Shown one piece after another: positions 3,625-58,514 of a stretch of DNA of 64,000 nt. Position numbers and translations under genes: made by a program. This DNA is from Thiocapsa marina 5811 (lineage in GTDB: Bacteria > Pseudomonadota > Gammaproteobacteria > Chromatiales > Chromatiaceae). Positions within the stretch are counted from its first letter, which is position 1; each line of letters begins with the position of its first letter. Location: positions 62,001 through 126,000 of the forward strand of contig NZ_AFWV01000015.1 in assembly GCF_000223985.1 (NCBI RefSeq), in the 5' to 3' direction. A model generated the notes under the pieces. It ran no database searches, was not told where the DNA came from, and saw nothing but the letters and a program-made list of their open reading frames with translations.

Positions 3625-4548
3625 ATGGCAACGATGGAAGACCGTGATGGCCTGATCTGGCACAACGGCGAGATGGTGCCCTGGCGGGAGGCCAAGACGC
3701 ATGTCCTGACTCACACCTTCCATTACGGCATGGGTGTCTTTGAAGGCGTGCGCGCCTACCGCACCGAGCAGGGCCCGGCGATCTTTCGTCTGCGCGATCA
3801 CACCGATCGCCTCTTCGATTCGGCGCACATCCTCGGCATGAAGGCGCCGTTCGACCGCGAGACCATCGACGAGGCCCAGCGGATCGCCGTGCGCGAGAAC
3901 AATCTCGACTCGGCCTACATCCGTCCGATGTTCTTCTACGGCCCGGAAGGCATGGGTCTGCGTGCCGACAACCTCAAGGTGCACTGCATCGTCGCCGCTT
4001 GGGAGTGGGGCTCCTATCTCGGCGAAGAGAACATGACCAAAGGCATTCGGATTCGGGTGTCCTCCTATACGCGCCATCACGTGAACATCACCATGTGTCG
4101 CGCCAAGGCCAACGGCAATTACATGAACTCCATGATGGCCTTGCAGGAGGCCCTGCGCGACGGTTACGACGAGGCCCTCCTGCTGGATGCCTCCGGCTAC
4201 GTGATGGAAGGCAGCGGCGAGAACGTCTTCATCGTGCGCAAGGGCGTGCTCTATACGCCGGATCTGACCTCCGCCCTCGACGGCATCACCCGGCGTACCG
4301 TCATGACGCTGGCGCGCGACCTGGGAATCGAGGTGGTGGAGAAGCGGATCACGCGCGACGAGGTCTATATCGCGGACGAGGCCTTCTTCACCGGCACCGC
4401 CGCCGAGGTGACGCCGATTCGGGAGGTGGACGGTCGCGTGATCGGCAACGGCGGGCGCGGTCCGATTACCGAGCGACTCCAGAGCCTCTACTTCGATCTG
4501 GTGCACGGGCGTCTGCCGGCCTATCCGGAATGGCTCACGCCGGTTTAA
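3625..4548 (+). CDS. ilvE: Branched-chain amino acid aminotransferase
   Basis: PLP enzyme of fold type IV carrying out the last step of valine, leucine and isoleucine synthesis. The 307-aa protein has HYGMGVFEGVRAY near the N-terminus, the Lys-containing AKANGNYMNS, and the cofactor-phosphate segment DGITRRTVM followed by FFTGTAAEVTPI. A GGAGTGA ribosome site precedes the ATG. The gene ends in GTT TAA, and that TAA belongs to the complementary-end repeat that starts at 4544. The downstream zinc-finger gene is a common neighbour of ilvE in related bacteria. Confidence 0.96.
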   Translation: MATMEDRDGLIWHNGEMVPWREAKTHVLTHTFHYGMGVFEGVRAYRTEQGPAIFRLRDHTDRLFDSAHILGMKAPFDRETIDEAQRIAVRENNLDSAYIRPMFFYGPEGMGLRADNLKVHCIVAAWEWGSYLGEENMTKGIRIRVSSYTRHHVNITMCRAKANGNYMNSMMALQEALRDGYDEALLLDASGYVMEGSGENVFIVRKGVLYTPDLTSALDGITRRTVMTLARDLGIEVVEKRITRDEVYIADEAFFTGTAAEVTPIREVDGRVIGNGGRGPITERLQSLYFDLVHGRLPAYPEWLTPV

Positions 4549-4632
4549 ATCGCGTGCGGTGATGGTTTGGCCCGTTATCGGTTGGGTTGATGCCGGAGTC
4601 TTTCGTCACCGTCGGAGCTGACGCGATTTAAA
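4544..4632. repeat. TAAACCGCG-type repeat, variant copy A
   Basis: This 89-bp element begins TTTAAATCGCGT and ends ACGCGATTTAAA, a perfect 12-bp complement. Compared with the standard ends (TTTAAACCGCG and CGCGGTTTAAA), the C-to-T change on the left is matched by G-to-A on the right, so pairing is kept. The ilvE stop codon lies inside the left end. Confidence 0.8.
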
Positions 4633-4734
4633 GTGAAAGAACGACAAGAGGGGACCTCATCCGGTCTTTGCGGCACGGACCCGCACACGTTCGGTGATGT
4701 CCCGAAAAGAACGACCACGCCGGAGGGGCGGCTG

Positions 4735-4760
4735 TAGGGGCGACTTCAGTCGCCCTCTAC
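4735..4760. repeat. Short palindrome with GGGCGACTTCAGTCGCCC core
   Basis: A near-perfect inverted repeat (TAGGGGCGACTT/CAGTCGCCCTCTA) lies in the gap before the zinc-finger gene. It resembles short REP-like palindromes of GC-rich proteobacteria. Its function is unknown. Confidence 0.45.
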
Positions 4761-4831
4761 AACATTTGCAGCCATCCGCATTCGGGATGCTTCATTCCCG
4801 GCAATCGATTTATCCGATGGAGACTTTGCCG

Positions 4832-5026
4832 ATGTCCAACGCAGCCGTCGAGACGCGGACCGAGCATGAGCTGATCGAGGTCAGCCGCAAGGATCTGCCG
4901 CTGTCCTGTCCCTTGCCCGGTGCACCTGTGTGGAACATGCATCCGCGGGTCTATCTGCCGATCGAAGACGAGCCGAACCACGAGGCGACCTGTCCCTATT
5001 GCGGTGCGCGCTATCGGCTTGTCTAA
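4832..5026 (+). CDS. Small CHCC-type zinc-finger domain protein
   Basis: This 64-aa protein carries [18 protein letters not shown] followed by CPYCGARY, which gives the Cys-His-Cys-Cys ligand set of the zf-CHCC family. The same fold occurs in the NDUFS6 subunit of mitochondrial complex I; the bacterial role is not established. The ATG at 4832 is chosen because homology begins just after it; an in-frame ATG at 4817 would add five residues. Its stop is one base before the pyrC ATG at 5028, so the two genes are almost certainly translated as a pair. Confidence 0.85.
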
Positions 5027-5027
5027 G

Positions 5028-6071
5028 ATGGCCGAGGTCATGGAGCTTCGCATTAACCGGCCGGACGACTGGCATCTGCATCTGCGCGACGGGGATGTCC
5101 TGGCGGATGTGCTCGCCCACACCGCGCGTTGTTTCGGGCGCGCGATCGTGATGCCCAATCTCAAACCGCCGGTCGTGGATACCGCCGGGGCGCTTGCTTA
5201 CCGAACGCGCATCCTGGACGCACTGCCGCCCGGCAGCGATTTTCAGCCCTTGATGACGCTCTATCTCACGGACGAGACGAGCCCGGCCGAGATCGGCACG
5301 GCCAAGGCGAGCGGTCAGGTCTTCGCCTGCAAGCTCTATCCTGCCGGTGCGACCACCAACTCGGAGAACGGGGTCACGGATCTGCTCGGACGCTATCCGG
5401 TCTTCGAGGCGATGCAGCGCGCCGCTTTGCCGCTCTTGGTGCATGGCGAGGTGACGGACGATCAGGTCGACATCTTCGACCGCGAGCAGCGCTTCATCGA
5501 GGAGCGCTTGGAGCCGATCGTCCGTGCGTTTCCCGGGCTCAAGGTTGTCTTCGAGCATGTGACGACCGCCGAGGCAGTCGATTTCGTGCGCGACGGACCG
5601 CCGACGCTGGCTGCGACCATCACGCCGCATCACCTGCTCTACAATCGCAACGCCATGTTGGCCGGCGGGATTCGTCCGCACCTGTATTGCCTGCCGATCC
5701 TCAAGCGCGAGCGCCATCGGCTCGCGCTGGTCTCCGCCGCGACGGGCGGTCATCCGAGGTTCTTCCTCGGTACCGACAGCGCGCCGCATGCGATCGAGGG
5801 CAAGGAGAGCGCTTGTGGTTGTGCCGGGGCCTTCAGCGCACACGCCGCCATCGAGCTTTATGCCGAGGTGTTCGAGCAGGCCGGCGCCTTGGCGCGGCTG
5901 GAGGGATTCGCGAGTCACCATGGCGCGGATTTCTACGGCCTGCCCCGCAACGCCGAGACCATTCGTCTGAGCCGCGAGCCTTGGACCGTTCCGGCATCCT
6001 ATTCCTTCGGAGCCAGTCGAGTGGTGCCTTTACGTGCCGGTGAAGCCGTCGCCTGGCGTGTCGTGGCTTGA
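5028..6071 (+). CDS. pyrC: Dihydroorotase (class II, PyrC type)
   Basis: Zinc hydrolase closing carbamoyl-aspartate to dihydroorotate in pyrimidine synthesis. From the ATG at 5028 the protein is 347 aa, the E. coli PyrC length. The metal-binding WHLHLRD is near the start. [16 protein letters not shown] contains the lysine that becomes carboxylated, VFEHVTT and TPHHL supply histidines, and GTDSAPH holds the catalytic Asp. An alternative ATG is at 5040. Translation is probably coupled to the zinc-finger gene one base upstream. Confidence 0.95.
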
Positions 6072-6123
6072 GAGCCGCGCCGATCGGCCCTGCCCGTCAA
6101 CCGGGCTATGTCGCTGATGGGAG

Positions 6124-6201
6124 GTAGGGTGGACAAGCGCAGCGCAGTCCACCAGCGTCGGTGCGAGACTCGGTGGACTGCGCTGCGCTTGTCCACCCTA
6201 C
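6124..6201. repeat. 78-bp palindromic repeat, copy 1 (GTAGGGTGGAC family)
   Basis: The left arm GTAGGGTGGACAAGCGCAGC has its complement GCTGCGCTTGTCCACCCTAC at the right end, about 30 complementary bases per arm around a short centre. Similar elements occur at 9504-9579 and 28783-28860. It lies between the convergent ends of pyrC and mlaA, where a bidirectional terminator would be expected. Confidence 0.85.
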
Positions 6202-6236
6202 GGCAGTTGCCTTGCTCATCAACCCGCACCCCAGGG

Positions 6237-6282
6237 CCGATCCCATCCAAGGACATCGCATAAAGCGCCGGGCGCGGTTTAG
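6237..6282. repeat. Partial second-unit (type 2) TAAACCGCG repeat
   Basis: Matches only the right half of the type 2 units at 28540-28629 and 49076-49164: GATCCCATCCAA, CATCGCATA, then GGGCGCGGTTTAG. The left half is missing and the 78-bp palindrome lies in its place. Read on the - strand its end supplies the TAA stop of mlaA. Confidence 0.7.
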
Positions 6283-7058
6283 TCGAACTCCACCTCGTCC
6301 CAGAAGTCCTCTTCACCTTCGATGGCTGGCGGATTTCCGTCGTGCACCCGATAGTGGCGCCGTTGCAGATAGGCGTCGCGCAGTAGAATGTAGGGATCGA
6401 TCGCCGCGTCCTCGAGGATCTGGCTGGTCGCCAAATAGTTGGCCCGCCGGTCGATTGCCCTGAGTGCGACCAAGCCCCAATAGACCCCGTCTCGGTCGAC
6501 CTTGAAGAGGGGATCGAGGTTGAACAAGGGGTCGGTGAAGATATCGCCGACATCGCCGAAGACATCCCGGACACTGTTCGGCCCCAGGAAGGGCACCATG
6601 ACGAAGGCGCCGGAATCCAGCCCCCAGTAGCCGAGCGTCTGACCGAAATCCTCCTTGTAGCTGGGTAATCCCACGTTGGTGGCCACATCGACGAAGCCCA
6701 GCACGCCGACCGTCGAGTTGATGAAGAGCCGCCCGACGTCGCTGCCGGCACGCGACATCTTGAACTGCAACACGTTGTTGACGAATGAGGTGACGTCGGA
6801 GAGATTGCCGAAGAAATTGGTCACGCCTCGCTCGACGGGATCCGGCGTGATGGCCCGATACCCTTTCGCCACCGGCTGGAAAAACGCCTTGTCGAAGTCG
6901 GTGTTGAATCGGAAGACGGCCCGATTGAAGGGCTCGAGCGGATCGCGGGGCTCGGAGATCCGGCTCGGCGAAGACGTGCAACCCGTGCCGAGCAGCAGGA
7001 TTGCCAAGACCACCAGCCCGGTCAGTCGTCGACAGGCGCTCAAATCCCGGTCCTTCAT
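6279..7058 (-). CDS. mlaA: MlaA/VacJ family outer-membrane lipoprotein
   Basis: Outer-membrane component of the Mla system, which removes misplaced phospholipids from the outer leaflet and returns them towards the inner membrane. The 259-aa protein starts with a lipoprotein signal peptide whose lipobox is LLLGTGC, followed by DPLEPFNRAVFRFN, the VacJ signature, then conserved RLFINSTVGVLGFVDVA and DSGAFVMVPFLGP. The ATG at 7058 is chosen because it places the signal peptide at the N-terminus; the open frame runs further upstream without homology. No mlaBCDEF genes are nearby. The stop lies in a repeat end. Confidence 0.93.
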   Translation of the reverse strand: MKDRDLSACRRLTGLVVLAILLLGTGCTSSPSRISEPRDPLEPFNRAVFRFNTDFDKAFFQPVAKGYRAITPDPVERGVTNFFGNLSDVTSFVNNVLQFKMSRAGSDVGRLFINSTVGVLGFVDVATNVGLPSYKEDFGQTLGYWGLDSGAFVMVPFLGPNSVRDVFGDVGDIFTDPLFNLDPLFKVDRDGVYWGLVALRAIDRRANYLATSQILEDAAIDPYILLRDAYLQRRHYRVHDGNPPAIEGEEDFWDEVEFD

Positions 7059-7207
7059 GCGTTGCAGATCTCTCGCGACATGTTCGACAAATGCTATCAC
7101 AGCCCGTGCCTCGCTCGAGCCACGACCGTTGGTTCGTTGGTTCGTTGGTTCGGTGTGCTTCGTTGCCCCGGACGCCGATGAGCGCTGATCGCCTGACGAG
7201 GCGCGCT

Positions 7208-8113: not shown

Positions 8114-8268
8114 CGTGCGATGCGCCGGTTTCGGCCGACCGGACGATCGGCGCCGGGAGCCTCGGGAATCCAGGTGCGGTCAGGATCGGGCGAGACGACA
8201 GCCCGCGGCGGCGCTCTGCCGCGATCAGTTTGTTTGGCATTCATCCGTGCGCCACTTATGCTGTCGCC

Positions 8269-8922: not shown

Positions 8923-8977
8923 ATCCCGGCGAGGGCACACGGGAGGCGTGGCTTCCAAGATCCCCGCATTGGATCGC

Positions 8978-9304: not shown

Positions 9305-9452
9305 TGACCTCTGTCTCGTGTTGTGACCGATCCGACAAGGTTCGGGACGCTAGCGGGCTTTTCAAGCTACCCCGAAAGGGGAGCGGGATCTATCCCGCTT
9401 GGGCGCCCTTGGCTTGCGCATACACTCGGCCACGTCGCCGATCGAAGCCGCA

Positions 9453-9523
9453 GGGTGGACAAGCGGGGCGGGGTGCGCAAGCGGGGTAGGGTGGGCAAGC
9501 GGGGTAGGATGGACAAGCGCAGC
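9453..9523. repeat. 18-bp tandem repeat running into a palindrome
   Basis: Four imperfect 18-bp units of the form GGGTGGACAAGCGGGGTA follow one another. The last becomes the left arm of the 78-bp palindrome at 9504. It looks like slippage-driven expansion of that arm. Confidence 0.75.
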
Positions 9524-9579
9524 GCAGTCCACCGTCGCCGACGCAGAAGGTGGACTTCGCTCTCGCTCGTCCACCCTAC
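9504..9579. repeat. 78-bp palindromic repeat, copy 2 (GTAGGGTGGAC family)
   Basis: Left arm GTAGGATGGACAAGCGCAGC, centre near CCGTCGCCGACGC, right arm GGTGGAC then GCTCGTCCACCCTAC. It is a slightly diverged copy of the elements at 6124 and 28783, lying 3' of the amidotransferase gene. Confidence 0.85.
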
Positions 9580-9628
9580 GGCCGGGAGAATAGACAACGC
9601 CGCCTGCATTCGCCGCGTGGCCGGTTTC

Positions 9629-16659: not shown

Positions 16660-17605
16660 GATGGCACCGGGTGGCCGCGGGTGGTTTCCCACCCGCGGCT
16701 CCCACAGATCCGGACGTGCGGGACTACCGCATCCGGCTCCTCGATTGAGCGCTCGCTACACGACAACTGTCGCACACCCGTTGGACCATTCAGCCCATGC
16801 CGCGATCTCCTGTCGTTCTGTTCAGATGGTCAGGTGACTCGATGTTCACGCCATCGTCCCTTCAGAAGATGTCTCAACCGATCGGCTGCTTCCCTCCCGC
16901 GGGTCCGCTGGGGTGCGTTCCCCGCGCTCGGCGGTACTATCAGCCGACTCTGACTGCTCAGTCGCCATCGCGCCGTACTTCGTTGCCTTCGCTTGGCGCT
17001 ACCTGGCCGTCGGTCCTGTTCGCTCCCGCGAGCCGGACCACCGCTCGCGAGCCTGGGCGGCTTCTTCCGCGGCGCCCGCACCGCGTCACTGACAAGGAGC
17101 GACTGAGCTCTCCCAGGTTCCTGGACGACCCGTGCGTACATGCCCTGCTCTCAGACCCCGGCGGAGTCTCGACATCAGGCCGTTGCGATGCCGAAACTGT
17201 TGCCTTCCGGTCTTCCGAATACGTCGGCTCCGCCGAACTCAGTTACGGGGCTCTATCACATGGCCTGCACGCCCCCTGTGTACGCTTCGCAGGCGGGATC
17301 GCTCCCGCACCACGCAACACTCGGTTCCGGTGGATGGCCAATCCTTACCGGCTCGGGACTTGTACCCGGTGGGTCGCAAAAAGGAGTTTCCGATTGGCTT
17401 ATCCGTTCGCTATCTTCCCCTCCTTCCAGGCTTTGCCTGGCGCAACGGTCTTACGAGCGAGGCTCGTCGGCGCATCGGCGGCCTCTTGGCATTGATGATG
17501 AAACGGCCGCTGGACGGTTTTGGCGCCTCTTCTTGGCTGCGGTGGGCAAGCCGTTGGATAGAGAGCCTGACTGGATGCTTGTGTCGGTGACCATCAGTCC
17601 TACTT
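16660..17605 (-). mobile_element. Group II intron without reverse transcriptase gene
   Basis: Read on the - strand, the block contains long segments typical of bacterial group II intron RNA: GCGACCCACCGGG and GAGCCGGTAAGGATTGGCC (about 17330-17380), CCGGAACCGAGTGTTGCGTG, AGCCCCGTAACTGAGT (about 17235-17255), then a domain V hairpin at 16709-16741 and a GC-rich domain VI-like stem (CCGCGGGTGG/CCACCCGCGG) at about 16675-16700. No intron-encoded protein is present: domain IV is only about 100 bp (about 16745-16850). Splicing or movement would need a maturase from elsewhere. The limits are approximate; the 5' end is the less certain. Open frames on the + strand here are antisense shadows. Confidence 0.8.
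16709..16741 (-). ncRNA. Group II intron domain V catalytic hairpin
   Basis: On the - strand the hairpin runs GAGCCGGATGCGG, loop TAGT, then CCCGCACGTCCGGATC. It has the AGC catalytic triad at the base, the bulge opposite, and a four-base loop, in the 34-nt size expected for domain V. Confidence 0.85.
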
Positions 17606-22810: not shown

Positions 22811-23007
22811 TCTAAACCGCGCCCGGAGCGACATGCGTCGTCTTCATTTTGTGTCGGGCTCAAGGGTTTTTCAGGCCCTTGTGGAGACGCGGTTTAGAAG
22901 TTTATATTTTTTAATATCTTAAGCCGCGCCACCTCCGGCGGTTGTGGGAGATGGCGCGTCCGATCCAATCCGGAAAACGATGGATATCGCACCGGTCGCG
23001 GTTTAAG
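22811..23007. repeat. Composite TAAACCGCG repeat, copy C (type 1 + linker + type 2)
   Basis: Type 1 unit 22811-22898 has ends TCTAAACCGCG and CGCGGTTTAGA. An AT-rich linker follows (22899-22917, TATATTTTTTAATAT within it), then a type 2 unit 22918-23007 with ends CTTAAGCCGCG and CGCGGTTTAAG. The far end supplies the stop codon of the hydrogenase protease gene on the - strand. Confidence 0.88.
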
Positions 23008-23473
23008 TGTTCCAGCGATCCAGCAGCGAGCGGATCCGCGCGATGGCATCCGGGATCGCCGCCTCGACCGCGGGCGTCAGGCGGTCGCCCCAGCCGACGA
23101 ACGCGGGCTCGATGCCGACGAGGGCGCGTTGGCGGGGGAGCGTTTCGGTGAGACGTGCGATGTCCATCAGATCGGAGAGGCTGACCTCGTGGACGGTCTT
23201 GGCATTGACGCTGAGCTGGCGATCCATCGCCGCGTCCTCGAAGACGCGCACACTGCCGGGCGGTTCGCCCATCGTCGCGGCATCGACGACGATCAGGCGG
23301 GAACAGTCCCCGATGGGCAGGGCGAGCGTGAAGCTCAAGGTTCCGCCGTCGATGAACACCATGGATGCGTCCGGGCCGATCTCCTGTTCCATTCGACGGA
23401 CCACCTCGGCGCCGACCGCCTCGTCGGTCATGAGGACATTGCCGAGGCCGAGGATGAGGGTGGTTGGTTGCAC
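23003..23473 (-). CDS. hupD: [NiFe]-hydrogenase maturation protease (HyaD/HupD family)
   Basis: Cleaves the C-terminal extension of the large subunit once nickel is inserted. The 156-aa protein, read from a GTG at 23473, opens with LILGLGNVLMTDEAVGAEVV, holding the nickel-sensing Glu, followed by VVDAATMGEPPG (Asp) and VHEVSLSDLM (His), the three metal ligands of the HyaD/HupD family. GTG is chosen because family sequence starts immediately after it. hypC is divergent 120 bp away. Structural hydrogenase genes are not in the window. The TAA stop is inside a repeat. Confidence 0.9.
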   Translation of the reverse strand: MQPTTLILGLGNVLMTDEAVGAEVVRRMEQEIGPDASMVFIDGGTLSFTLALPIGDCSRLIVVDAATMGEPPGSVRVFEDAAMDRQLSVNAKTVHEVSLSDLMDIARLTETLPRQRALVGIEPAFVGWGDRLTPAVEAAIPDAIARIRSLLDRWNT

Positions 23474-23593
23474 GGCGCTGGACCTTCTGCCTATGGTGGG
23501 TGATTGGACGATCGTTTGATCTGAGTCCTTGCAGGTGTGCGCGGCGCGGCTTAGCCTGCGGTGCAATGATCGACTTCCCTTGGGGGCTTGTCC

Positions 23594-23839
23594 ATGTGTC
23601 TCGGTATCCCGATGCAGATCCAGTCCGTCGACGGCTTCGTGGCCCGGTGTACGGCGAAGGGGGCGGAGCGCGAGGTCAATCTCTTCATGCTCCAGGACGA
23701 GACCATCGGCGTCGGCGACTATGTCGTGGTCCATCTGGGCAACGCGATCAGCCGCATGAGCGAGGAGGAGGCGGCCGCCGCCTGGGAGATCTATGACGCC
23801 ATGTTGGCGGCGCAGGACGGCGGCCGGCTCGAGGTGTGA
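23594..23839 (+). CDS. hypC: HypC/HybG/HupF hydrogenase assembly chaperone
   Basis: The 81-aa protein starts MCLGIPMQIQ; Cys2 is the essential residue that carries the Fe(CN)2CO unit with HypD and hands it to the large subunit. Continuing VARCTAKGAEREVNLFML and DYVVVHLGNAISRMSEEEA fit the OB-fold of HypC. The start is fixed by the requirement for Cys at position 2, although TTG at 23588 is also in frame. It is divergent from the protease gene and converges on an unknown gene. Confidence 0.93.
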   Translation: MCLGIPMQIQSVDGFVARCTAKGAEREVNLFMLQDETIGVGDYVVVHLGNAISRMSEEEAAAAWEIYDAMLAAQDGGRLEV

Positions 23840-23888
23840 TCCGGCGGGCAGAGATGCCCGAGCGGGCAACCCCGTCCGCCGCGCGGGT

Positions 23889-28431: not shown

Positions 28432-28629
28432 TCTAAACCGCGTCCGGAGCGAGATGCTCACTTTCGCGTGAGTTCGACGTTTGGTGCATCCTCGGCCCTT
28501 AGCGGGGGACGCGGTTTAGAATTTTATATTTCTTAACGCCTTAAACCGTGCCGCCTCTGAAAATAATCGGAGCCGGCGCGGCCAAGCCAATCCAACACAC
28601 GGTGCATACCGCGCTGGGCGCGGTTTAAG
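28432..28629. repeat. Composite TAAACCGCG repeat, copy D (type 1 + linker + type 2)
   Basis: Type 1 unit 28432-28520 has 14 perfectly complementary end bases (TCTAAACCGCGTCC / GGACGCGGTTTAGA). The AT-rich linker (28521-28539, ATTTTATATTTCTTAA) is followed by a type 2 unit 28540-28629 ending GGGCGCGGTTTAAG. The 150 bp after it (28630-28782) carry no recognisable gene, only a short - strand open frame without family resemblance. Confidence 0.9.
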
Positions 28630-28782
28630 CAACGCCCCACAGCGGACGCGGGGCCGGCGTTCGATGCCGTCGAGATCGATCTGGGTGATGTGTTCGGCAG
28701 CGCGCCCTGAGCCGACCTGCACGAACGCAATGCCGCTTCGGTCCTCGCGATACGCGAGCACTGATTCCCCCGGGATAGCGCT

Positions 28783-28860
28783 GTAGGGTGGACAAGCGCA
28801 GCGCAGTCCACCGGCGCCGGCGCCGAGCTCGGTGGACTTCGCTCTCGCTCGTCCACCCTA
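28783..28860. repeat. 78-bp palindromic repeat, copy 3 (GTAGGGTGGAC family)
   Basis: Left arm GTAGGGTGGACAAGCGCAGC, right arm GGTGGAC then GCTCGTCCACCCTAC, centre rich in GGCGCC. It lies 3' of the porin gene and is nearly the same as the copy at 9504-9579. Confidence 0.85.
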
Positions 28861-30488: not shown

Positions 30489-30521
30489 CCGATTCGCTCC
30501 TGAATTGAATTGCGTCCGAAA

Positions 30522-30608
30522 TTGAATTGCGTCCGAGGCTACGATTGATCCGAGATGCAAGGCCGCTCCCTCGCAGTCACCAAAGCAAACCTAGTCGACG
30601 CAATTCAA
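30522..30608. repeat. TAAACCGCG-type repeat, variant copy L
   Basis: Ends are TTGAATTGCGTC and GACGCAATTCAA, perfectly complementary over 12 bp yet differing from the standard ends at several positions on both sides. The left end is duplicated just upstream (TTGAATTGCGTCCG also at 30505). It lies before the small accessory gene. Confidence 0.8.
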
Positions 30609-30624
30609 ATAAGATTAAAAATAC

Positions 30625-30711
30625 TTAAACCGCGTCCGCGCCAAGATTCATTGATGGCGAGAACGCAGCAGCACTTCGAAATCTCTCATATCCCACCGAG
30701 ACGCGGTTTAA
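30625..30711. repeat. TAAACCGCG-type repeat, copy E
   Basis: Ends TTAAACCGCGTC and GACGCGGTTTAA pair over 12 bp in an 87-bp unit. It is only 16 bp from the variant copy L, so the symporter-accessory gap is filled by two diverged units in tandem. The symporter stop codon lies inside it. Confidence 0.88.
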
Positions 30712-32537
30712 TCGGGGAAACAGCGACGCAAATGCGCCTGATCCGGCGGTCGCGTCACCGCACTGACAAGGATCAAGGTCAGCAGCGATGCCGGAAGCGC
30801 GATGATGATCGGGTCTACGGACGGCCAATTGGGATACTCCGCAAGCAGGCTGGTCTTGCCGTCGGTGACCATCTGCACCAGCCCGATTGCGCTGGCCTCG
30901 CGAGCCTTGATGAAGGCCAGCCAGAAGAGCGAGACGCTCATGCCGACGGTCATGGAGGCGAGCGCGCCCGCGCGGGTGACGCGCTTGGAGACGAGTCCGC
31001 CGATGTAGGCCGGCAGGAAGCTCGCCGCACAGAGTCCGAAGAAGATCGCCGTGAAGCGGGCGATGACGTACTCCTGACGAACCGTATAGCTGATGGTCAC
31101 GGCGATGAGCAATCCGATCATGATGGCGAGGCGCATCACCAGGATGCTCGGCTCGCGTTGATGTCCCTTCTCCGCGATGCGCTCGTAGAGGTCGCGTCCC
31201 GCCGCCGTGCCGATGGTGTGGAATTGGCTCGACATGGTGCTCATGGCCGCGGCGAGCAGTGCGAGGAAGAAGATGACGCCGAACCAATGGGGCATTGCGG
31301 CCATGATGAAGGCCGGGATGATCTTGTCGGCGTCGCCCTTGGTGTAGGTCGCGGCGATGGAACGGCCGGCGACGAGCTCGAAGGTCGCGCCGTCGCCGTC
31401 TTGTGCCGAGGTACGCTCGCCGATGATCATGGGCGCGCGTGCGGGTGCCTGCGTCTTGGGGCTGATGATCGGGGTCCAGGTCCCCGATTCGCCCTTCTGC
31501 ATCAGCTCGACCAAGGCGCGATCCTTCTCGGCATCGATGACCTCGACGACCTTGCCTTGCAGGAGCGGTCCGTTCTGCGCGAACCAGGCGTTCGAGAGGC
31601 TGCCCACCACGAAGGGCGTCCCGACCATGAGCAGGATGAAGACGGCGCCGATCGGCACGGCCCGGTCGAGCTCGCGACGGCTGCGCACCGTCATGAAGCG
31701 CACCACCAGTTGGGGTTGGGCGAGCACGCCGATCCCCACGCCGAGCACCAGCGCGGTGATCACGGTCCACCACAGATCGTAGGTGGTCGCGCCCCAGCCG
31801 AAGGCAGGCATTGCGGTCCAACCTTGATGGCCCATCTGCGCGAGCGGTGCGGGGACCATATCCGCCATGTCGGTCAGGGTGCGGTGGGCCTCGGTGACGC
31901 CGCCGAGGCTCATGTAGGTAAAGATCAGCAGAAAGATCATGGCGAAGACCATGACGAAGCCCTGGAGTGTATCGGTATACATCACCGCCTTGATGCCGCC
32001 GGGGATGACATAGGCTGCGGTGATGAGCGCGAAGATCAGCAGCGCGACCTCGAAATCGATCCCGAACTGGGTGGCCGCGAAGATACTGCCCCCGGTCATG
32101 ACAGCGGCCGAGTAGAGCGGCATGAAGAGAAAGATCAGCGCGCCGGCGAAGATCTGGATGCCGCGACTCTGGTAGCGTTGACCCAGCAGCTCGGGAAAGG
32201 TGTGGGCCCCGAGATGATGACCGAGTCGCCGTGTGGGCTCGCCCAGGAAGATGAAGGCGATCAGGATCCCGACCCCGATGTTGAGCACGGTGAGCCACAG
32301 CAGACTCATGCCGAAGAGCCCGGCGACCCCGCCGAAGCCGACAATGGCCGCGGTCGAGATGAAGGTGGCCCCGTAGGAGACCGCCATGATGATCGGATGG
32401 GCCGAACGCCCGCCGACCAGGAAGTCCGCTGCCGAGCGGGTGCCGCGATAGCCGAGCCAGCCGAGATAGCCGGTGGCGAAGAGGTAGGCCAGAATGACGA
32501 CGATGTCGACCCAGCCTACGGAAGATTGTCCCGTCAT
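30708..32537 (-). CDS. Sodium:solute symporter (SSS family)
   Basis: The 609-aa inner-membrane protein shows the SSS core: YRGTRSAADFLVGGRSAHP, SYGATFISTAAIVGFGG (sodium-site region), and YVIPGGIKAVMYTDTLQGFVM. About 13 helices are interrupted by a long soluble loop at about residues 330-400 (VEVIDAEKDRALVELMQKGE, then ERTSAQDGDGATFEL), unusual for the family but also seen in symporters paired with small accessory proteins. Solute unknown. Its TAA stop is inside repeat E. Confidence 0.9.
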   Translation of the reverse strand: MTGQSSVGWVDIVVILAYLFATGYLGWLGYRGTRSAADFLVGGRSAHPIIMAVSYGATFISTAAIVGFGGVAGLFGMSLLWLTVLNIGVGILIAFIFLGEPTRRLGHHLGAHTFPELLGQRYQSRGIQIFAGALIFLFMPLYSAAVMTGGSIFAATQFGIDFEVALLIFALITAAYVIPGGIKAVMYTDTLQGFVMVFAMIFLLIFTYMSLGGVTEAHRTLTDMADMVPAPLAQMGHQGWTAMPAFGWGATTYDLWWTVITALVLGVGIGVLAQPQLVVRFMTVRSRRELDRAVPIGAVFILLMVGTPFVVGSLSNAWFAQNGPLLQGKVVEVIDAEKDRALVELMQKGESGTWTPIISPKTQAPARAPMIIGERTSAQDGDGATFELVAGRSIAATYTKGDADKIIPAFIMAAMPHWFGVIFFLALLAAAMSTMSSQFHTIGTAAGRDLYERIAEKGHQREPSILVMRLAIMIGLLIAVTISYTVRQEYVIARFTAIFFGLCAASFLPAYIGGLVSKRVTRAGALASMTVGMSVSLFWLAFIKAREASAIGLVQMVTDGKTSLLAEYPNWPSVDPIIIALPASLLTLILVSAVTRPPDQAHLRRCFPD

Positions 32538-33551: not shown

Positions 33552-35153
33552 ATGATCGATCTTAACGTGAAGCCGGTGAAGGCTCGTCCGTTCGTGATTT
33601 TGGCGCTGATGCTCCTCGTGCCGCTCGGCGTGCCGGCGAGCGAGACCCCGGGGGAGTCGGCCCCTCTCGACCCCTCCGCATTCTCGGACGTCATGATCCC
33701 CGAGGGGCGCGTCGAGGCCGCCGTGGGGCAGCTCGACGCCATGGCCGAGGCGGCGCTCGAGACGACCGGGGTCCCGGGCATGGCGATCGCGGTCGTGCAC
33801 CGTGATCGCGTCGTCTATCTGAAGGGCTTTGGTCTGCGTAGCCTCGACGGCGAGGCGCGCGTCGATGACGAGACGGTCTTTCAGCTGGCCTCCTTGTCGA
33901 AGCCGGTTGCGGCGACGGTGGTCGCGGCCGCGATCGATCGCACCCACGGCGAGCGAGCAGGTCTCGCCTGGGATGACCCGATCGTTCGCCATCTGCCGGA
34001 TTTCGCCTTGAACGATCCGGCGATCACGTCGCGGGTCACGATCGCGGATCTCTTCGCTCATCGCAGCGGACTGCCCGACCATGCCGGCGACCTCTTGGAG
34101 AGCATCGGCTACGGGCGCGCGGAGATCCTCTCGCGCCTGCGCTTTTACCCCCTGGCACCCTTCCGGGCCAGCTACGCCTACACCAACTTCGGCCTGACCG
34201 CCGCGGCGGAGGCTGTCGCGCGCGCGGAGGGCACCTCGTGGGAGCGCTTGAGCCAAGAGCTCCTCTACAGCCCGCTCGGCATGACCTCCACCAGCTCGCG
34301 TTTCGCGGACTTCATCTCGGCCCCTAATCATGCGATCGGACACGTCCGCCGAGACGGTGTCTGGGTGGTGACGCCCGAGGTTCGCGAACCCGATGCACAG
34401 TCGCCCGCGGGCGGCGTGAGCAGCTCGGCGTCCGATATGGCGCAGTGGCTACGGCTGGTTCTGGGCGAGGGGATGCTGGAGGGCAAGCCGGTCATCGGAG
34501 CGCAGGCATTGGCACGGATCCACGCGCCGAATCTGATGAGCTCCCCCTTGCACGGGCCGAGCAGCCGTCCGAGCTTCTACGGGCTGGGTCTCGGAGTGAG
34601 TGTGGATAGCGCCGGGCGCGTCCGCTGGTCGCATTCGGGCGCCTTTCTCTTGGGCGCGTCGACGACGCTTGCCATGCTGCCCTCGGAGTCCTTGGGGATC
34701 GTCATCCTGACCAACGGACAACCTGTCGGTGCGCCCGAGGGCGTCGCCGCCGGCTTCCTCGAGCTGGTGGAGACCGGCGAGATCCGGCACGACTGGCCGG
34801 CCCTCTTCGGCGGCGCGATCGCGAGACTCTACGCGGAGACCACCGCGTTCGCAGAGACCCCGAGCGCACCCGCCCCGGCACGGCCGTTGGATGTCTATGT
34901 CGGTCGATATGCCAACGACCTCTATGGACCGGCTGTCGTGGAAGCGACCGATGCCGGATTGGTCCTGAGGCTCGGCCCGAGTCCGATTGCGCTTCCGATG
35001 AGTCATTTCGACGGCGATGCCTTCACCTTCCGACCCATCGGCGAGGACGCGCTCGGGGTCAGCGGTGCGGTCTTTGGGTTCGATGACGAGCGCGCCGCGT
35101 CCCTGCAAATTGAGTATCTGGACGAGGAGGGGCTCGGGACGTTCAGGCGCTAA
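33552..35153 (+). CDS. Exported serine hydrolase, class C beta-lactamase family
   Basis: The 533-aa protein has a signal segment (FVILALMLLVPLGVPAS) and a beta-lactamase-like domain with LASLSKPVAATVV (SxxK) near residue 117 and YTNFG (YxN) near residue 215, followed by a C-terminal all-beta domain. GGAGG 9 bp before the ATG at 33552 supports this start over the GTG at 33546. Family members include D-aminopeptidases, esterases and penicillin-binding proteins; no choice can be made. The TAA stop begins a partly duplicated repeat end. Confidence 0.87.
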   Translation: MIDLNVKPVKARPFVILALMLLVPLGVPASETPGESAPLDPSAFSDVMIPEGRVEAAVGQLDAMAEAALETTGVPGMAIAVVHRDRVVYLKGFGLRSLDGEARVDDETVFQLASLSKPVAATVVAAAIDRTHGERAGLAWDDPIVRHLPDFALNDPAITSRVTIADLFAHRSGLPDHAGDLLESIGYGRAEILSRLRFYPLAPFRASYAYTNFGLTAAAEAVARAEGTSWERLSQELLYSPLGMTSTSSRFADFISAPNHAIGHVRRDGVWVVTPEVREPDAQSPAGGVSSSASDMAQWLRLVLGEGMLEGKPVIGAQALARIHAPNLMSSPLHGPSSRPSFYGLGLGVSVDSAGRVRWSHSGAFLLGASTTLAMLPSESLGIVILTNGQPVGAPEGVAAGFLELVETGEIRHDWPALFGGAIARLYAETTAFAETPSAPAPARPLDVYVGRYANDLYGPAVVEATDAGLVLRLGPSPIALPMSHFDGDAFTFRPIGEDALGVSGAVFGFDDERAASLQIEYLDEEGLGTFRR

Positions 35154-35157
35154 ACCG

Positions 35158-35242
35158 CTAAACCGCGTCCCGAGTGATTTGCCATGTCTTGGTGTCGGCT
35201 CGGTGTTGGCTCGACCCGGGAACCTTGTGAGACGCGGTTTAG
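35158..35242. repeat. TAAACCGCG-type repeat, copy F
   Basis: Ends CTAAACCGCGTC and GACGCGGTTTAG pair over 12 bp. An extra partial left end, TAAACCGC at 35151, lies directly before it, and that one provides the serine hydrolase stop codon. Confidence 0.88.
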
Positions 35243-36029: not shown

Positions 36030-36742
36030 ACGCCATGATGACCCGTCTCGCCTGTCTCGGATCGCTTGCCCTCGTGCTCGTGGCCGACATCGCCTCCGCG
36101 TCTCCGCCCGCGCAACCCTATGCGCCCGGCATCGAATCGCCCGGCTATGTCTGGAACGCGCCCAACGAGGAGCAGATGATCGCGCTGGCCCATCGCGCCG
36201 ACCCCGCGAACGGCGAGGAGGCCTATGCCGTCTGTCGCGGTTGCCATCAGGCGGATGGCTCGGGTCGCGGCGACGCCATCTATCCGCAGCTGGCCGGCCA
36301 ACACGCGAGTGTCTTGATCAAGCAGATGGTCGACGTGCGCGCGGGGCGGCGCGACAACCCCAAGATGCACCCCTTTGTGGCCGAGTGGGTCGTGTCGTCC
36401 GAGGAGGTCGCCGATATCGCCGCCTATCTGTCGCAGCTCCCGATCCCGCCGACCAATCTAAAAGGCGACGGCACGGCCCTCGCGCGCGGTCAGGCCCTCT
36501 ACGAGAAGGATTGTGCGGCCTGTCACGGCGCGCAGGGCGAGGGCGATGGCGCGGAGTTCTACCCCCGCGTCGCGCATCAGCACGTCAGCTATCTCGACCG
36601 TGAGTCCAAGCTCATTCGCGACGGCGGGCGGCGCAATGCGAATCCCGAGATGGTGAAGGCGATCAAGGGGTACAGCGACGCCGATATCGCGGCGGTGAGC
36701 GACTATATGTCCCGCTTACCGGTTGAATCCCGTCCGGAGTGA
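36026..36742 (+). CDS. Diheme cytochrome c, c4-like (second gene)
   Basis: The 238-aa protein has a signal peptide (LACLGSLALVLVADIASAS), and heme sites CRGCH and CAACH with the same spacing as its neighbour, plus PQLAGQHASVLIKQMVDVRAG. It starts in an ATGA overlap with the previous gene, so the two are co-translated and may act as an electron-transfer pair. The last five residues (ESRPE) and the stop are encoded by the left end of a diverged repeat. Confidence 0.9.
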   Translation: MNAMMTRLACLGSLALVLVADIASASPPAQPYAPGIESPGYVWNAPNEEQMIALAHRADPANGEEAYAVCRGCHQADGSGRGDAIYPQLAGQHASVLIKQMVDVRAGRRDNPKMHPFVAEWVVSSEEVADIAAYLSQLPIPPTNLKGDGTALARGQALYEKDCAACHGAQGEGDGAEFYPRVAHQHVSYLDRESKLIRDGGRRNANPEMVKAIKGYSDADIAAVSDYMSRLPVESRPE

Positions 36743-36810
36743 CGGCTTGTGTACAGCGGGTAAGCGTCGATTGTTGAACCCCAAGAGCTCGGCGCTGGAC
36801 GCGATTCAGA
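36723..36810. repeat. TAAACCGCG-type repeat, diverged copy J
   Basis: The 88-bp unit runs from TTGAATCCCGTCC, followed by CGGAGTGA as in other type 1 units, to GGACGCGATTCA. The ends still pair over most of their length. It codes for the end of the second cytochrome. Confidence 0.6.
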
Positions 36811-43401: not shown

Positions 43402-43468
43402 TCAACCGCGTCCAGAGCGAGATGCCCGCTTTCCCGGGCATCCCTTAGTGCGTCCCGACACGGCTTAC
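43402..43468. repeat. TAAACCGCG-type repeat, degraded copy G
   Basis: TCAACCGCGTCCAGAGCGAGATGC resembles the type 1 left part (shown in two words: left end then CAGAGCGAGATGC), and GACACGGCTTA resembles the right end. The unit is about 20 bp shorter than others and pairs poorly. The gap 43247-43539 otherwise holds only a short - strand open frame with no recognisable family. Confidence 0.5.
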
Positions 43469-43539
43469 AACCATGCACGGCCGGGTGTCTTGGTTCCCGG
43501 AAGTTGTCCTAAAAATCTCCAATCGCCGGATTCCGATCG

Positions 43540-48967: not shown

Positions 48968-49164
48968 CTTAAGCCGCGTCCGGAGCGCGATGCTGACTTC
49001 CGAGTGAGCGCGTCGTTTGGTGCATCCACGGCCCTTGGCGGAGGATGCGGTTTAAAAGTCTATATTTTTTAAAATCTTAAACCGCGCCGGGTCTAACGGT
49101 CGTCAAGTCTGGCGGAGCCGATCCCATCCAAAAACATCGCATACCGCGCTGGGCGCGGTTTAAG
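48968..49164. repeat. Composite TAAACCGCG repeat, copy H (type 1 + linker + type 2)
   Basis: Type 1 unit 48968-49055 has ends CTTAAGCCGCGTCC and GGATGCGGTTTAAA, pairing with two G:T wobbles. The AT-rich linker (49056-49075) contains TATATTTTTTAAAAT. Type 2 unit 49076-49164 ends GGGCGCGGTTTAAG. This copy lies between divergent genes, 18 bp before the oxidoreductase ATG, so it can hardly act only as a terminator. Confidence 0.88.
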
Positions 49165-50181: not shown

Positions 50182-50185
50182 GGCG

Positions 50186-55522: not shown

Positions 55523-55690
55523 CGGGTCCTCCGTCGTCCAGTCGGCGCCGCGGTATCCGGGCGCCGAAGGGTCGCGCTCGCCTCAGGGACGGGCGCAGGG
55601 TCCGCTGTGTCGTCCAGACCGAGGGACGTCTTGTTGTTGTCGTGCTCTCTCCGGTTGCGGCCTATCCCCGGTCTCGGCCGCGCACCGGCT

Positions 55691-56146
55691 CTAAGCGGGG
55701 CGTTTTAGAGTCAACACCCGCGGGGTCTGTGTCGGTCCGTCCGTGTTTCGCCGGCGCTCGAGCATCTGCTTGATGACCGCTTGGATTTCTCCGATCAGCC
55801 GCGTCTGCGTCTCCCGTAGATCCCTAAAATAATAGACGATCTCGCAATCGACGGGGTTCGAAATGGACTCCCGTCCGACCGCCGGTCGCCAGGCGATCCG
55901 GATCAGGCGACCGCCCTCGCCGTCCTGGTAGGCATAACCGCCGTGGCTGTCGACGAAGACCACCTCCTCGCGATCGACGACGGCCTGATACTGCATGGAA
56001 CGTATCGGGATGAAGACGGCGCTCCCGGTGCTGCGTCGCAGAAGCAGCTGCAGCCCGTTGTAGAGCGTTGCCGGGATCCGCGTCTGCTCATGCGCGACCG
56101 CCTCGTCGGGTCGAAAGAAGGTCTCGCGCGTCAGATAGTCGGCCAT
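55691..56146 (-). CDS. Conserved hypothetical protein
   Basis: The 151-aa protein is soluble with no signal. It reads ETFFRPDEAVAHEQTRIPATL, then a beta-rich centre (FIPIRSMQYQAVVDREEVVFVDSHGGYAYQ) and IRIAWRPAVGRESISNPVDCEIVYYF, and a helical end (IGEIQAVIKQMLERRR). The compact conserved-looking core suggests a real gene. I recognise no family. The next gene on the same strand (56204-56506) ends 57 bp upstream and is also unknown. Confidence 0.65.
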   Translation of the reverse strand: MADYLTRETFFRPDEAVAHEQTRIPATLYNGLQLLLRRSTGSAVFIPIRSMQYQAVVDREEVVFVDSHGGYAYQDGEGGRLIRIAWRPAVGRESISNPVDCEIVYYFRDLRETQTRLIGEIQAVIKQMLERRRNTDGPTQTPRVLTLKRPA

Positions 56147-56203
56147 GTCGGAATGCCCCGCCGATCCGGATGTCGATCGCCCGCCCCGCGGAGCGGCATC
56201 TGC

Positions 56204-56506
56204 TCAGTCGCTGTCGCCGAGCTCGGGATCCCAGCCGGCTGCGCGTGCCTTTTCGATTGCTGCCGAATAGATCCGCTCATGCCGTTCGCGCAGCTCGGGG
56301 GGGAGCCTGGAGACGAGATGGCCGTAGGGGTGCCATGCCTCCGTGACCTTGTCGTAGAGATCCTCGATGCCTTGAACGGTCCAGCCCTCGCAGGTCTGAT
56401 CCTCCGGGAGGATACCGAAGACCCAGGCGTCTCGGATGATGTTGGCGGTCGGGGTCATGGCGCCGCCTTCCTGCTTGTCGATGCCTTCGTAGATCTTGCT
56501 CTTCAT
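56204..56506 (-). CDS. Small conserved hypothetical protein
   Basis: The 100-aa protein reads KSKIYEGIDKQEGGAMTPTA, IIRDAWVFGILPEDQTCEGW, GIEDLYDKVTEAWHPYGHLV, ending AIEKARAAGWDPELGD. It is soluble and strongly patterned. I recall near-identical small proteins in other sulfur-oxidising bacteria, still without function; that memory is not a database result. It may form a two-gene unit with 55691-56146. Confidence 0.7.
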   Translation of the reverse strand: MKSKIYEGIDKQEGGAMTPTANIIRDAWVFGILPEDQTCEGWTVQGIEDLYDKVTEAWHPYGHLVSRLPPELRERHERIYSAAIEKARAAGWDPELGDSD

Positions 56507-56697
56507 AAGGTCTGTCTCGGTTGAAATCCGCTACACTCTAGCGCCTTGCCTCTCCGACCGCTACGTCGGCCGGCGGCCGAACCGGCGGGCCGCATCCCGC
56601 GCGTTGCACCGTCGATACAGCGGCCGGTATCCGCGGGCGGTCGGTCGAACCTTTCGCGTCGGGCACAACCGACGCGATCCACCGAGCGAGTCTGCCC

Positions 56698-57294
56698 ATG
56701 TCCGAGATCCTGGTCGATCTGATCCGTCACGGCGAGCCCCTCGGCGGTGCGCGCTATCGCGGCAACGGGACCGACGATCCGCTGAGCCCGGTGGGCTGGT
56801 CGCAGATGAGCGATGCGCTCGGCGCGGCGGCGCCCTGGGATCAGGTCATCAGCTCGCCGATGTCGCGCTGCCGTGTCTTCGCCGGGGATCTCGCCGGTCG
56901 ACACGGATTGCCGCTGGTTGTCGATCCGAGCCTGATCGAGGTCGGCATGGGCGCCTGGGAAGGACGTGCCCGCAGCGCGGTTGCCGAGGAGGAGCCCGAA
57001 CGCTTTGCCGCCTTCTATCGCGACCCCGTCGCGGAGCGCCCGGCCGGTGCCGAGCCGCTCGAAGGTCTGCTCGAGCGCGTCTCGGATGCCTACGCGCGTC
57101 ATCTGGCCGCCTATCCGGGTCGCCGGCTGCTCATCGTCTGCCACGCCGGGGTGATGCGGGCGCTGGTCGGGCATCTGCTCGGTGCCGATGCGCGCCGCTG
57201 GTACCGCATCCGGATCGACTACGCCGGGCTGGTGCGGGTCCGCCACGGGCGTCTGGGTCCGAGCATCGAGTGGGTTAACGCGCGAAGGCTATGA
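56698..57294 (+). CDS. Histidine phosphatase family protein
   Basis: The 198-aa protein has the phosphoglycerate-mutase-like catalytic motif VDLIRHGEPLGG, the arginine-bearing SSPMSRCRVFA, the general-acid region LIEVGMGAWEGRARS, and the second catalytic histidine in VCHAGVMRALVGHLL. It is related to CobC/alpha-ribazole phosphatases, but no cobalamin gene is nearby to support that substrate. aroG begins 71 bp after its stop with a possible promoter between. Confidence 0.88.
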   Translation: MSEILVDLIRHGEPLGGARYRGNGTDDPLSPVGWSQMSDALGAAAPWDQVISSPMSRCRVFAGDLAGRHGLPLVVDPSLIEVGMGAWEGRARSAVAEEEPERFAAFYRDPVAERPAGAEPLEGLLERVSDAYARHLAAYPGRRLLIVCHAGVMRALVGHLLGADARRWYRIRIDYAGLVRVRHGRLGPSIEWVNARRL

Positions 57295-57326
57295 GCATCG
57301 AGACGAGGAGACCGGATCGATTGGGC

Positions 57327-57332
57327 TATACT
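57327..57332 (+). promoter_or_regulatory. Candidate -10 box upstream of aroG
   Basis: TATACT preceded by TTGGGC lies 33 bp before the aroG ATG. The -35 region is weak, so the call is tentative. Confidence 0.35.
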
Positions 57333-57365
57333 TAACGGCTTTCGACGCCGTTGTAATCCCAGACC

Positions 57366-58418
57366 ATGCAAAAGACCGACGATCTGCGCATCCGCGAAAT
57401 CAAAGAAGTCCGCTCCCCGAGCGCGTTGCACGAGGAATTCCCGATCTCGGAGGCGGCAGCGGAGACCGTCTATTCCACGCGCCACGCCATTCAGCAGATC
57501 CTCCACGGTCGGGACGATCGTCTGCTGGTCGTCGCGGGTCCCTGCTCGGTTCATGATCCCCGCGCCGCGCTCGAGTACGCCGAGCGTCTCAAGATCCTTC
57601 GCGACGAATTGAGCGATCGCCTGCTGATCGTCATGCGTGTCTATTTCGAGAAGCCGCGGACCACGGTCGGCTGGAAGGGTCTGATCAATGATCCGAATCT
57701 GGACGGCAGCTTCGAGATCAATCAGGGGCTCGGCATCGCCCGCAAGCTCCTGCTGGACCTCAACGGCATGCAGATCCCGGCCGGGACCGAGTTCCTCGAT
57801 CTCATCAGCCCGCAATACATCGCCGACCTGGTCAGTTGGGGTGCGATCGGTGCGCGCACGACCGAGAGCCAGGGCCATCGCGAGCTGGCCTCCGGCCTGT
57901 CCTGTCCCGTCGGCTTCAAGAACGCGACCAACGGGGACGTGAAGGTCGCCATCGACGCCATCCATGCCGCGGCGCGTCCGCATGTCTTCATGTCGGTCAC
58001 AAAGGAAGGCCAATCCGCGATCTTCAGCACCACCGGCAACGTCGACACCCACATCATCCTGCGCGGCGGCCAACGGCCGAACTACGATACCGAGAGCGTG
58101 AGCATCGCCGCGGAGCAGATCATCGAGTCCGGTCTGACCCCCAAGATCATGATCGACTTCAGCCACGCCAACAGCCGCAAGCGCCCGGAAAAGCAGATCC
58201 GGGTCTGCCAGGACGTGGCCGGCCAAATCGCCCGCGGGGATCGCGGCATCATGGGTGTCATGATCGAGAGCCACCTGGTCGGGGGGCGGCAGGACCTGGG
58301 CTCGAGCGACGGGATGGTCTTCGGTCAAAGCGTCACCGACGCCTGTATCGGCTGGGACGATACGGTTCCGATGCTGCATGAGCTCGCGGATGCCGTCATG
58401 CGCCGACGCGCACTCTAG
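57366..58418 (+). CDS. aroG: 3-Deoxy-7-phosphoheptulonate synthase (DAHP synthase, AroAI-alpha type)
   Basis: First enzyme of aromatic amino acid synthesis, condensing PEP and erythrose 4-phosphate. The 350-aa protein has VVAGPCSVHDPRAALEYAERL, MRVYFEKPRTTVGWKGLINDP, GARTTESQGHRELASGLSCPVGFKN and DFSHANSRKRPEKQ, all characteristic of the E. coli AroF/G/H group. Which aromatic amino acid inhibits it cannot be read here. A repeat follows 12 bp after its stop. Confidence 0.95.
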   Translation: MQKTDDLRIREIKEVRSPSALHEEFPISEAAAETVYSTRHAIQQILHGRDDRLLVVAGPCSVHDPRAALEYAERLKILRDELSDRLLIVMRVYFEKPRTTVGWKGLINDPNLDGSFEINQGLGIARKLLLDLNGMQIPAGTEFLDLISPQYIADLVSWGAIGARTTESQGHRELASGLSCPVGFKNATNGDVKVAIDAIHAAARPHVFMSVTKEGQSAIFSTTGNVDTHIILRGGQRPNYDTESVSIAAEQIIESGLTPKIMIDFSHANSRKRPEKQIRVCQDVAGQIARGDRGIMGVMIESHLVGGRQDLGSSDGMVFGQSVTDACIGWDDTVPMLHELADAVMRRRAL

Positions 58419-58430
58419 CCGGAAATCGCC

Positions 58431-58514
58431 TAAACCGCGTCAAGAGCGACATGCGTCATTTTCGTGTTGTGTTTGGCTTCGGAGATGTCCTCGATCTCGG
58501 TGAGACGCGGTTTA
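58431..58514. repeat. TAAACCGCG-type repeat, copy I
   Basis: Ends TAAACCGCGTC and GACGCGGTTTA pair over 11 bp in an 84-bp unit. It fills the gap between the convergent aroG and mtgA genes and supplies the mtgA stop codon. Confidence 0.88.

Follow-up and report, generated by a model that had tools for sequence, protein, structure and literature searches.

A 64,000-nt stretch of the Thiocapsa marina 5811 genome (contig NZ_AFWV01000015.1, positions 62,001 to 126,000; the window) carries many copies of a short repeat family that is very probably a nonautonomous miniature inverted-repeat transposable element (MITE) of the IS630 type, inserting at TA as a dimer of about 193 bp. An earlier note on the window had described short intergenic units whose complementary ends vary in step. 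The family is real, but its units are not solitary and not fixed in place; the note did not mention that the element is a mobile one, probably of IS630 type, that is often a dimer and often located at a stop codon.

Anatomy and abundance of the repeat

The full unit, about 193 bp long, consists of two halves that each fold back on themselves, measure about 85 bp, and face one another across an AT-rich spacer. Each half has the layout TA-AACCGCGYC ... GRCGCGGTT-TA. A scan with fixed end bases, in which positions 4, 7, 8, and 12 were left free and spans of 40 to 160 were allowed, yielded 262 unique units; a second set of 288 unique units was collected by interior homology only. End-to-end lengths in the scan piled up at 83 to 87 bp, and the spacer was 22 or 23 bp in 49 of the 67 unique dimers. 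At under 200 bp, the dimers are too small for a transposase gene. The end TTTAAACCGCGTC, with at most one mismatch, occurred 353 times (170 + 183) in the whole genome, versus 0 + 1 for the reversed control. These counts and the pile-up of lengths exclude a chance origin of the ends. In the 864 kb that was read of the 5.59-Mb source genome (G000), 80 clusters with 113 units were found, which extrapolates very roughly to about 500 clusters per genome.

The halves belong to a few young families (A1, A2, B1, and B2) and to many old ones whose interiors are no longer alike; clustering of interiors at a 66% threshold gave 55 clusters, 43 of which were single sequences. The outer ends of young-family dimers are alike over about 24 bases (TAAACCGCGYCCRGMGCGRNATGC), and the inner ends are alike only in the terminal 11 to 13. 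When 14 units were folded as DNA and as RNA, the terminal stem alone recurred (12 of 14 DNA folds); two B2 units folded otherwise. Old-class ends mostly have TGA instead of TAA (46/86 ends, versus 2/132 young ends), also away from stops. An origin of these TGA ends from TGA stop codons was rejected, with 8 old-class TGA ends at a stop and 38 elsewhere. Collapsed copies were also observed: a 23-nt palindrome of the two ends (G000 C61:47519-47541), the outer halves of A and B joined together (L079:4414-4480), and a 27-nt miniature (L135:1891-1917).

Empty sites and mobility

Six of the 11 genomes of the genus (apparently Thiocapsa) were used to compare orthologous sites. The occupant was of the same size in 48 comparisons and of another size in 47, and the site was nearly empty in 33. 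Exactly 2 bp remained in 25 of the 33 near-empty comparisons (TA in 14, TG in 6, TC in 3, and CG in 2). These 25 gaps stem from 12 source elements, 9 of which gave TA at least once, and the TA target-site duplication that marks IS630-type MITEs was found. A wider synteny set added few further empty sites. The window dimer at 48970-49162 corresponds to a bare TA in four relatives (G001, G002, G004, and G010). A dimer of G001 is likewise absent from a clear empty site in G010, as is a dimer of G010 in G002. The base after the right TA of the window dimer (49163) is an A that pairs with the inner T of the half; the four relatives with empty sites have C.

The site at window position 58431 holds several states of the element: a single A2 unit in G000, a single A1 unit in G002, an A2-B dimer in G003, and an empty site (GCC-TA-AAGCC) in G001. 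In G010, an A2 unit runs into the spacer and is followed by a larger insert; G007 and G008 retain short remnants, and G004, G006, and G009 have other sequence. The presence of a dimer and a single at one site, together with the 2-bp empty sites, shows that dimers insert as whole units. From the same site we infer that singles arose by deletion between the inner and outer copies of CGCGGTTTA.

Genes were predicted with a home-made caller on 1.26 Mb of DNA taken from six genomes, and 116 clusters were placed relative to them. The outer flanks of these 116 elements show a Y-TA-R context, with Y before TA in 112 and R after TA in 110.

A probable IS630-type parent and distribution of the repeat

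One of the DDE_3 (IS630-type) loci examined in the genus, located in G006, has repeat-like ends at its borders; its transposase has DDE_3 and HTH_33 domains. Relatives of this transposase were found in 5 of 116 sampled genomes of the family (Chromatiaceae, purple sulfur bacteria) and, where their borders are visible, are flanked by TAAACC-type ends whose further sequence also follows that of the repeats' outer ends. Terminal inverted repeats are thus shared with an insertion sequence (IS) encoding a DDE_3 transposase: the best outer-end match, A2 against the IS of G073, covers 30 of 35 bases, and the remaining comparisons gave 21 to 29 of 35. G129 has three IS copies of 1274 bp that end in TA. 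No fold-back partner was found at the ends of six IS copies, for which the best matches were 6 to 8 of 11 at scattered lengths. Of 13 IS loci examined, two (including a fragment) also coincide with the stop that closes a long coding frame. The IS630-type element of G006 (L219, position 1371) falls precisely on the stop of a frame that carries a type I restriction R-subunit domain.

Eight of the 11 genus genomes have the repeat at high density; in G005, G006, and G009 it is near background. The 24-base outer-end pattern was present in 10 of the 116 family genomes and dense in 6, two of which lie outside the genus. At least two other genera have dense repeats; carriers named among the matches listed include Thiobaca trueperi, Lamprocystis purpurea, Thiocystis minor, and Thiorhodococcus mannitoliphagus. 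None of 72,556 plasmid records matched the one window dimer used as query. The outer-end pattern had a single match in a viral contig of 39.8 kb (L276).

Placement on stop codons

In 56 of the 116 elements (57 ends), the outer TA and the next A form the stop codon (TAA) of the adjoining gene; the count for the source genome alone was 39/79. Only 7 of the 116 clusters lie mostly within an open reading frame, though 86% of the DNA was called coding. Stop codons make up 162 of the 833 free noncoding YTAR sites. Elements outside open reading frames lie at stops in 56 of 109 cases (the expected fraction is 0.23; P of about 2e-10, with the relatedness of elements ignored). Genes facing an element do so at a median distance of 3 nt from their 3′ ends and 93 nt from their 5′ ends. 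Where an ortholog lacks the element at its stop, its C terminus is no more than one residue away from the same place in 40 of 45 comparisons, and none is off by 3 or more residues; loci are shared between these comparisons, and some still hold a broken element. Exact, frame-preserving placement on stops is a clean, countable target rule. The YPAL/RU-2 repeat of Yersinia prefers sites just after stop codons.

Placement at stops did not rise with age (33/62 young versus 23/47 older copies), and the share is therefore set at insertion or by early loss; retention at stops with age was rejected. A preference for the A or the B half at the stop in A-B dimers was also rejected, as each faced it 9 times.

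Variation of the two ends

The pairing of the ends was assessed at the free positions of the 262 units. This approach was preferred over an RNA covariance model because the alignment is not fitted to the structure. Position 4 was A-T in 218 units and G-C in 37 and was mismatched in 7. Position 7 was C-G in 227, T-A in 17, G-C in 3, A-T in 2, and mismatched in 13, while position 8 was C-G in 244, T-A in 9, and mismatched in 9. Position 12 was paired in 239 of the 262 units. Changes at positions 4, 7, and 8 were two-sided in 69 cases, of which 68 were Watson-Crick, and one-sided in 28.

The two self-complementary halves of a dimer provide a built-in control that separates coevolution of shared ends from pairing within a half. 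Shared evolution of transposon ends predicts agreement between the two outer ends. Among 90 varying end positions in dimers (n = 67), agreement within the same half was found at 77 and 81 positions (158/180), between outer ends at 8/90, and between inner ends at 12/90; most of the 90 are position 12, where related A-B dimers have one common history. At positions 4, 7, and 8 alone, same-half agreement was 30 and 28 of 35 (58/70), and outer-outer and inner-inner agreement was 6/35 each. Each half pairs with itself and not with its partner half, which argues for pairing beyond shared ends. A compensated switch was also seen in an ortholog pair (G001 65592 and G010 68720), where G-C and A-T alternate as TGA..TCA versus TAA..TTA and the stop codon is TGA in G001 and TAA in G010. 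G-C at position 4 is spread over 30 interior clusters, which were not counted as independent events because one older family could be their ancestor.

One-sided changes were also frequent. Three large families had 5 two-sided Watson-Crick changes versus 19 one-sided changes, where about 0.16 two-sided changes are expected under independence. In the interior-homology set, nearly all stem changes in young families were one-sided, and this counts against strong covariation there. Window copies with one-sided mismatches are those at 22811 (position 12), 4544 (position 13), 36723 (position 9), and also 48968. The claim of the earlier note that the ends vary in step is thus upheld insofar as paired changes exceed independence, as in the 58/70 same-half agreement, but several copies have changed on one side only. 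Its argument that the paired changes reflect more than shared ancestry agrees with the contrast between same-half agreement and outer-outer or inner-inner agreement, although changes in the large families are mostly one-sided.

The outermost base, which distinguishes the end variants TCTAAACC, CTTAAACC, and TTTAAACC, lies outside TA and is therefore target sequence at outer ends. Pooled, it was paired in 51 of 77 singles versus 36.9 expected and in 90 of 120 dimer units versus 61.8; within subfamily A1 it was paired in 27 of 68, with about 28 expected. The outermost-base variants listed earlier as paired ends hold up only in part: the base is largely target, and its pairing is above independence when pooled and not within A1.

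Stems diverge more slowly than loops

At window position 30523-30710, where a dimer occupies the same place in six species, 3 of 44 stem columns and 51 of 126 loop columns were variable (Fisher P = 1.2e-5). Over 41 ortholog comparisons, divergence was 0.027 in stems, 0.174 in loops, and 0.217 in spacers, an approximately 6-fold difference between stem and loop that is somewhat inflated because many comparisons come from the locus at 30523-30710, some are reciprocal, 127 stem positions opposite gaps were set aside, 7 of the 48 same-size occupants were dropped (they did not align as the same element), and elements were chosen by their ends.

Possible function and rival explanations

Probably, an IS630-type transposase acted in trans on the outer ends of dimers and placed them at YTAR sites, often at stop codons, with the stop then restored by the element's own first base. 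Singles would then derive from dimers by deletion between the CGCGGTTTA copies. The host may keep the copies as strand-symmetric hairpins at gene 3′ ends, where they could protect or terminate transcripts. A function of 3′-end hairpins is the leading, unproven idea for the pairing and the slow stems. That hairpins kept by the host explain the paired, slow stems and the diverging loops is possible, with the balance of probability against it. The broader view, in which a transposon has become a dispersed gene-end module that inserts on stops, restores the stop, and has its two hairpins kept and changes in one arm compensated on the other over the time scale of species (in one orthologous pair even a TAA/TGA stop change), is put forward tentatively. 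If the inner ends served only transposition, old fixed copies should lose them, and those compared have not.

Pairing as RNA on the gene strand would favor G-U over A-C. This was not so in the gene sense strand (G-U 22 versus A-C 19; P = 0.76), and a strand-specific RNA reading was rejected. Selection for a stem in RNA or DNA, as suggested earlier, is consistent with the slow stems (0.027 versus 0.174), but the strand signature of RNA is absent. The best fit appears to be a role at gene ends that acts at the DNA level or is strand symmetric, or else selection combined with palindrome correction.

Several results weigh against the combined reading of a MITE with a role at gene ends. For mobility, the 2-bp gap was not TA in 11 of 25 comparisons, another 8 near-empty comparisons had a different gap, and 47 comparisons showed an occupant of some other size. 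A close intact transposase was found in only 1 of the 11 genomes of the genus, G006, which is itself poor in repeats; matches elsewhere in the genus are 26 to 40% identical, one of them with stops. For a role at gene ends, the absence of a G-U excess, the equal share of stops in young and older copies, and the indifference of A-B dimers as to which half faces the stop are all unfavorable. A simple terminator scan of 15 kb, blind to 60-nt loops, found 8 terminators versus 7.1 expected. The gene calls behind the stop-codon P value came from the home-made caller, and that value ignores the relatedness of elements. The stem comparisons lean heavily on one locus, and one member of each compared pair was selected for recognizable ends, which biases stem conservation upward.

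A purely selfish MITE is a substantial possibility, if somewhat short of an even chance. The fold-back would then serve transposition (e.g., as a cruciform or in transposase-binding geometry), and the bias to stops would reflect target choice and the loss of harmful insertions, with no host role. The Y-TA-R target suits stop codons, the stop fraction is the same in young and older copies, no strand-specific pairing signal was seen, and unit and spacer lengths are narrow. However, old copies that are no longer similar to the young families keep paired, slow stems at one locus in several species, where a single fixed copy gains nothing from transposition, and the fold-back was not seen at the ends of the parent IS.

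Palindrome correction, in which template switching copies one arm onto the other and gives complementarity without selection, is an unlikely but not negligible explanation of the pairing. It accommodates the nearly exclusive Watson-Crick outcome of two-sided changes at positions 4, 7, and 8 (68/69) and the lack of G-U versus A-C asymmetry. Tandem end duplications and collapsed copies also show that these palindromes rearrange. Acting alone, correction should let the paired sequence drift at the neutral rate, whereas stems are several-fold slower than loops, and many one-sided mismatches persist in the large families. The tandem duplications of terminal sequence occur at outer ends (window 30506-30533 and 35148-35169, and a slice of G004 from 29192) and look as if ends had been copied repeatedly.

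Spread by duplication of a cis-regulatory RNA family (a terminator or a stabilizer of mRNA 3′ ends), and not by transposition, is an improbable origin. The position at gene 3′ ends (median, 3 nt versus 93 nt for 5′ ends) would fit such a family, as would a spacer that is T rich in the gene sense (15 versus 5 in non-A-B dimers, with 6 rows from one locus, and 6 versus 4 in A-B dimers). The empty sites that differ by TA and the IS630-like outer ends argue against it, as do the lack of an Rfam family at gathering score and of strand-specific wobble. REP/REPIN-type repeats moved by a Y1 (RAYT) transposase are also palindromic doublets with hundreds of copies at gene ends, and Y1 transposases occur in 11 of 11 genomes of the genus, but the TA difference at empty sites and the DDE-type IS ends make this origin highly implausible, and it was rejected when 0 of 20 Y1 loci examined (from a longer match list) had an element within about 1 kb, four having one at about 1.0 to 1.3 kb.

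Copies in the window

The window contains 8 clusters with 12 recognizable units; four of the 8 clusters are head-to-head pairs. A further copy, at 43402, is degraded, and at about 6236-6281 a remnant of an outer end is left. The element is present at all ten places listed earlier, with starts within 1 to 2 nt of those reported, but that list missed the head-to-head pairing of the four clusters and the remnant at 6236-6281. The copies and the genes that they adjoin are as follows.

3634-4548, aminotransferase gene (Aminotran_4), whose stop codon comes from the unit at 4546-4630
4546-4630, no strand assigned, single unit with ends TAAATCGCGTG/TAAATCGCGTC; the TA at its left end and the A that follows make up the aminotransferase stop codon
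6236-6281, no strand assigned, remnant, the outer end of a type B half
22813-23005, plus strand, dimer of an A2 half (22813-22896), AT-rich spacer, and B-type half (22920-23005)
23003-23869, HycI gene, stop codon supplied by the right end of the dimer at 22813-23005
28434-28627, plus strand, dimer of an A1 half (28434-28518), spacer, and B2 half (28542-28627)
30523-30710, minus strand, old dimer with two self-paired end classes, 30523-30607 (TGAATTGCGTC) and 30626-30710 (TAAACCGCGTC)
30708-32537, SSF symporter gene (SSF), stop codon supplied by the dimer at 30523-30710
35159-35241, no strand assigned, single unit following the gene that ends at 35153
36724-36808, no strand assigned, single old unit with ends TGAATCCCGTC/TGAATCGCGTC and an ortholog in G004
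43402-43469, no strand assigned, degraded type A unit
48970-49162, plus strand, dimer of an A1 half (48970-49054), spacer, and B1 half (49078-49162)
58431-58514, plus strand, single A2 unit that supplies the transglycosylase stop codon
58512-59342, transglycosylase gene (Transgly), stop codon from the unit at 58431-58514

The dimer at 28434-28627 begins 3 nt past the stop of the PntB gene (PNTB domain).

Known relatives and significance

Small hairpin MITEs are known in bacteria, and an IS parent is proposed only for RUP in the passages of PMC2229807 consulted; for the other repeats of this kind treated there, parents were not found or not sought. RUP of Streptococcus pneumoniae is about 107 bp, intergenic, and inserted at TA, with 9-bp inverted ends (PMC2229807). 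It resembles the present family in these respects and, with IS630-Spn1, in its IS630-family-like ends and proposed mobilization in trans; two self-paired halves and placement on stops are not mentioned for RUP in those passages of PMC2229807. In its mode of movement, the present family matches RUP and other TA-inserting MITEs. Correia/NEMIS and ERIC/RU-1 are also under 200 bp with a terminal TA, a target duplication, and an end-to-end stem-loop, and fusion of ERIC-like units to the 3′ ends of genes can occur, according to passages of PMC2229807 and PMC2759123. They have one end-to-end stem as described there, in contrast with two independent halves here, and RU-1 fusions alter the end of the reading frame, whereas the stop is restored here.

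CIR of Caulobacter and Brucella, compared by the description of its layout alone, has two inverted-repeat arms and a linker, a terminal TA, and an intergenic location; it differs in its length of about 110 bp, its GANTC motifs, and a mobility mechanism given as unknown (PMC2229807, in part). YPAL/RU-2 is, in the same excerpts of PMC2229807, a mobile palindromic repeat with known empty sites; it lacks a terminal TA, has target duplications of 3 to 26 bp, and is about 168 bp with internal inverted repeats.

A search of open-access literature found no published description of repeats like these from Thiocapsa or Chromatiaceae. The family looks like a new IS630-type MITE family. Its unusual features are the self-pairing of each half and the use of the outer TA plus first A as the stop of a gene. 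Within one bacterial family there are an IS of the matching type, empty sites, products of deletion, and conserved copies of old age, and the element can therefore be followed from insertion toward possible domestication.

Other features of the window

At gathering score, none of the Rfam 15 families was found in the window except for a group II intron match. This match, to Group II intron D1-D4-6, lies at 17146-17362 on the minus strand (157 bits). A second palindromic repeat family (GTAGGGTGGACAAGCGCAGCGCAGTCCACC) occurs at 6121-6184, 9447-9564, and 28780-28843, with several more copies in contig 61.

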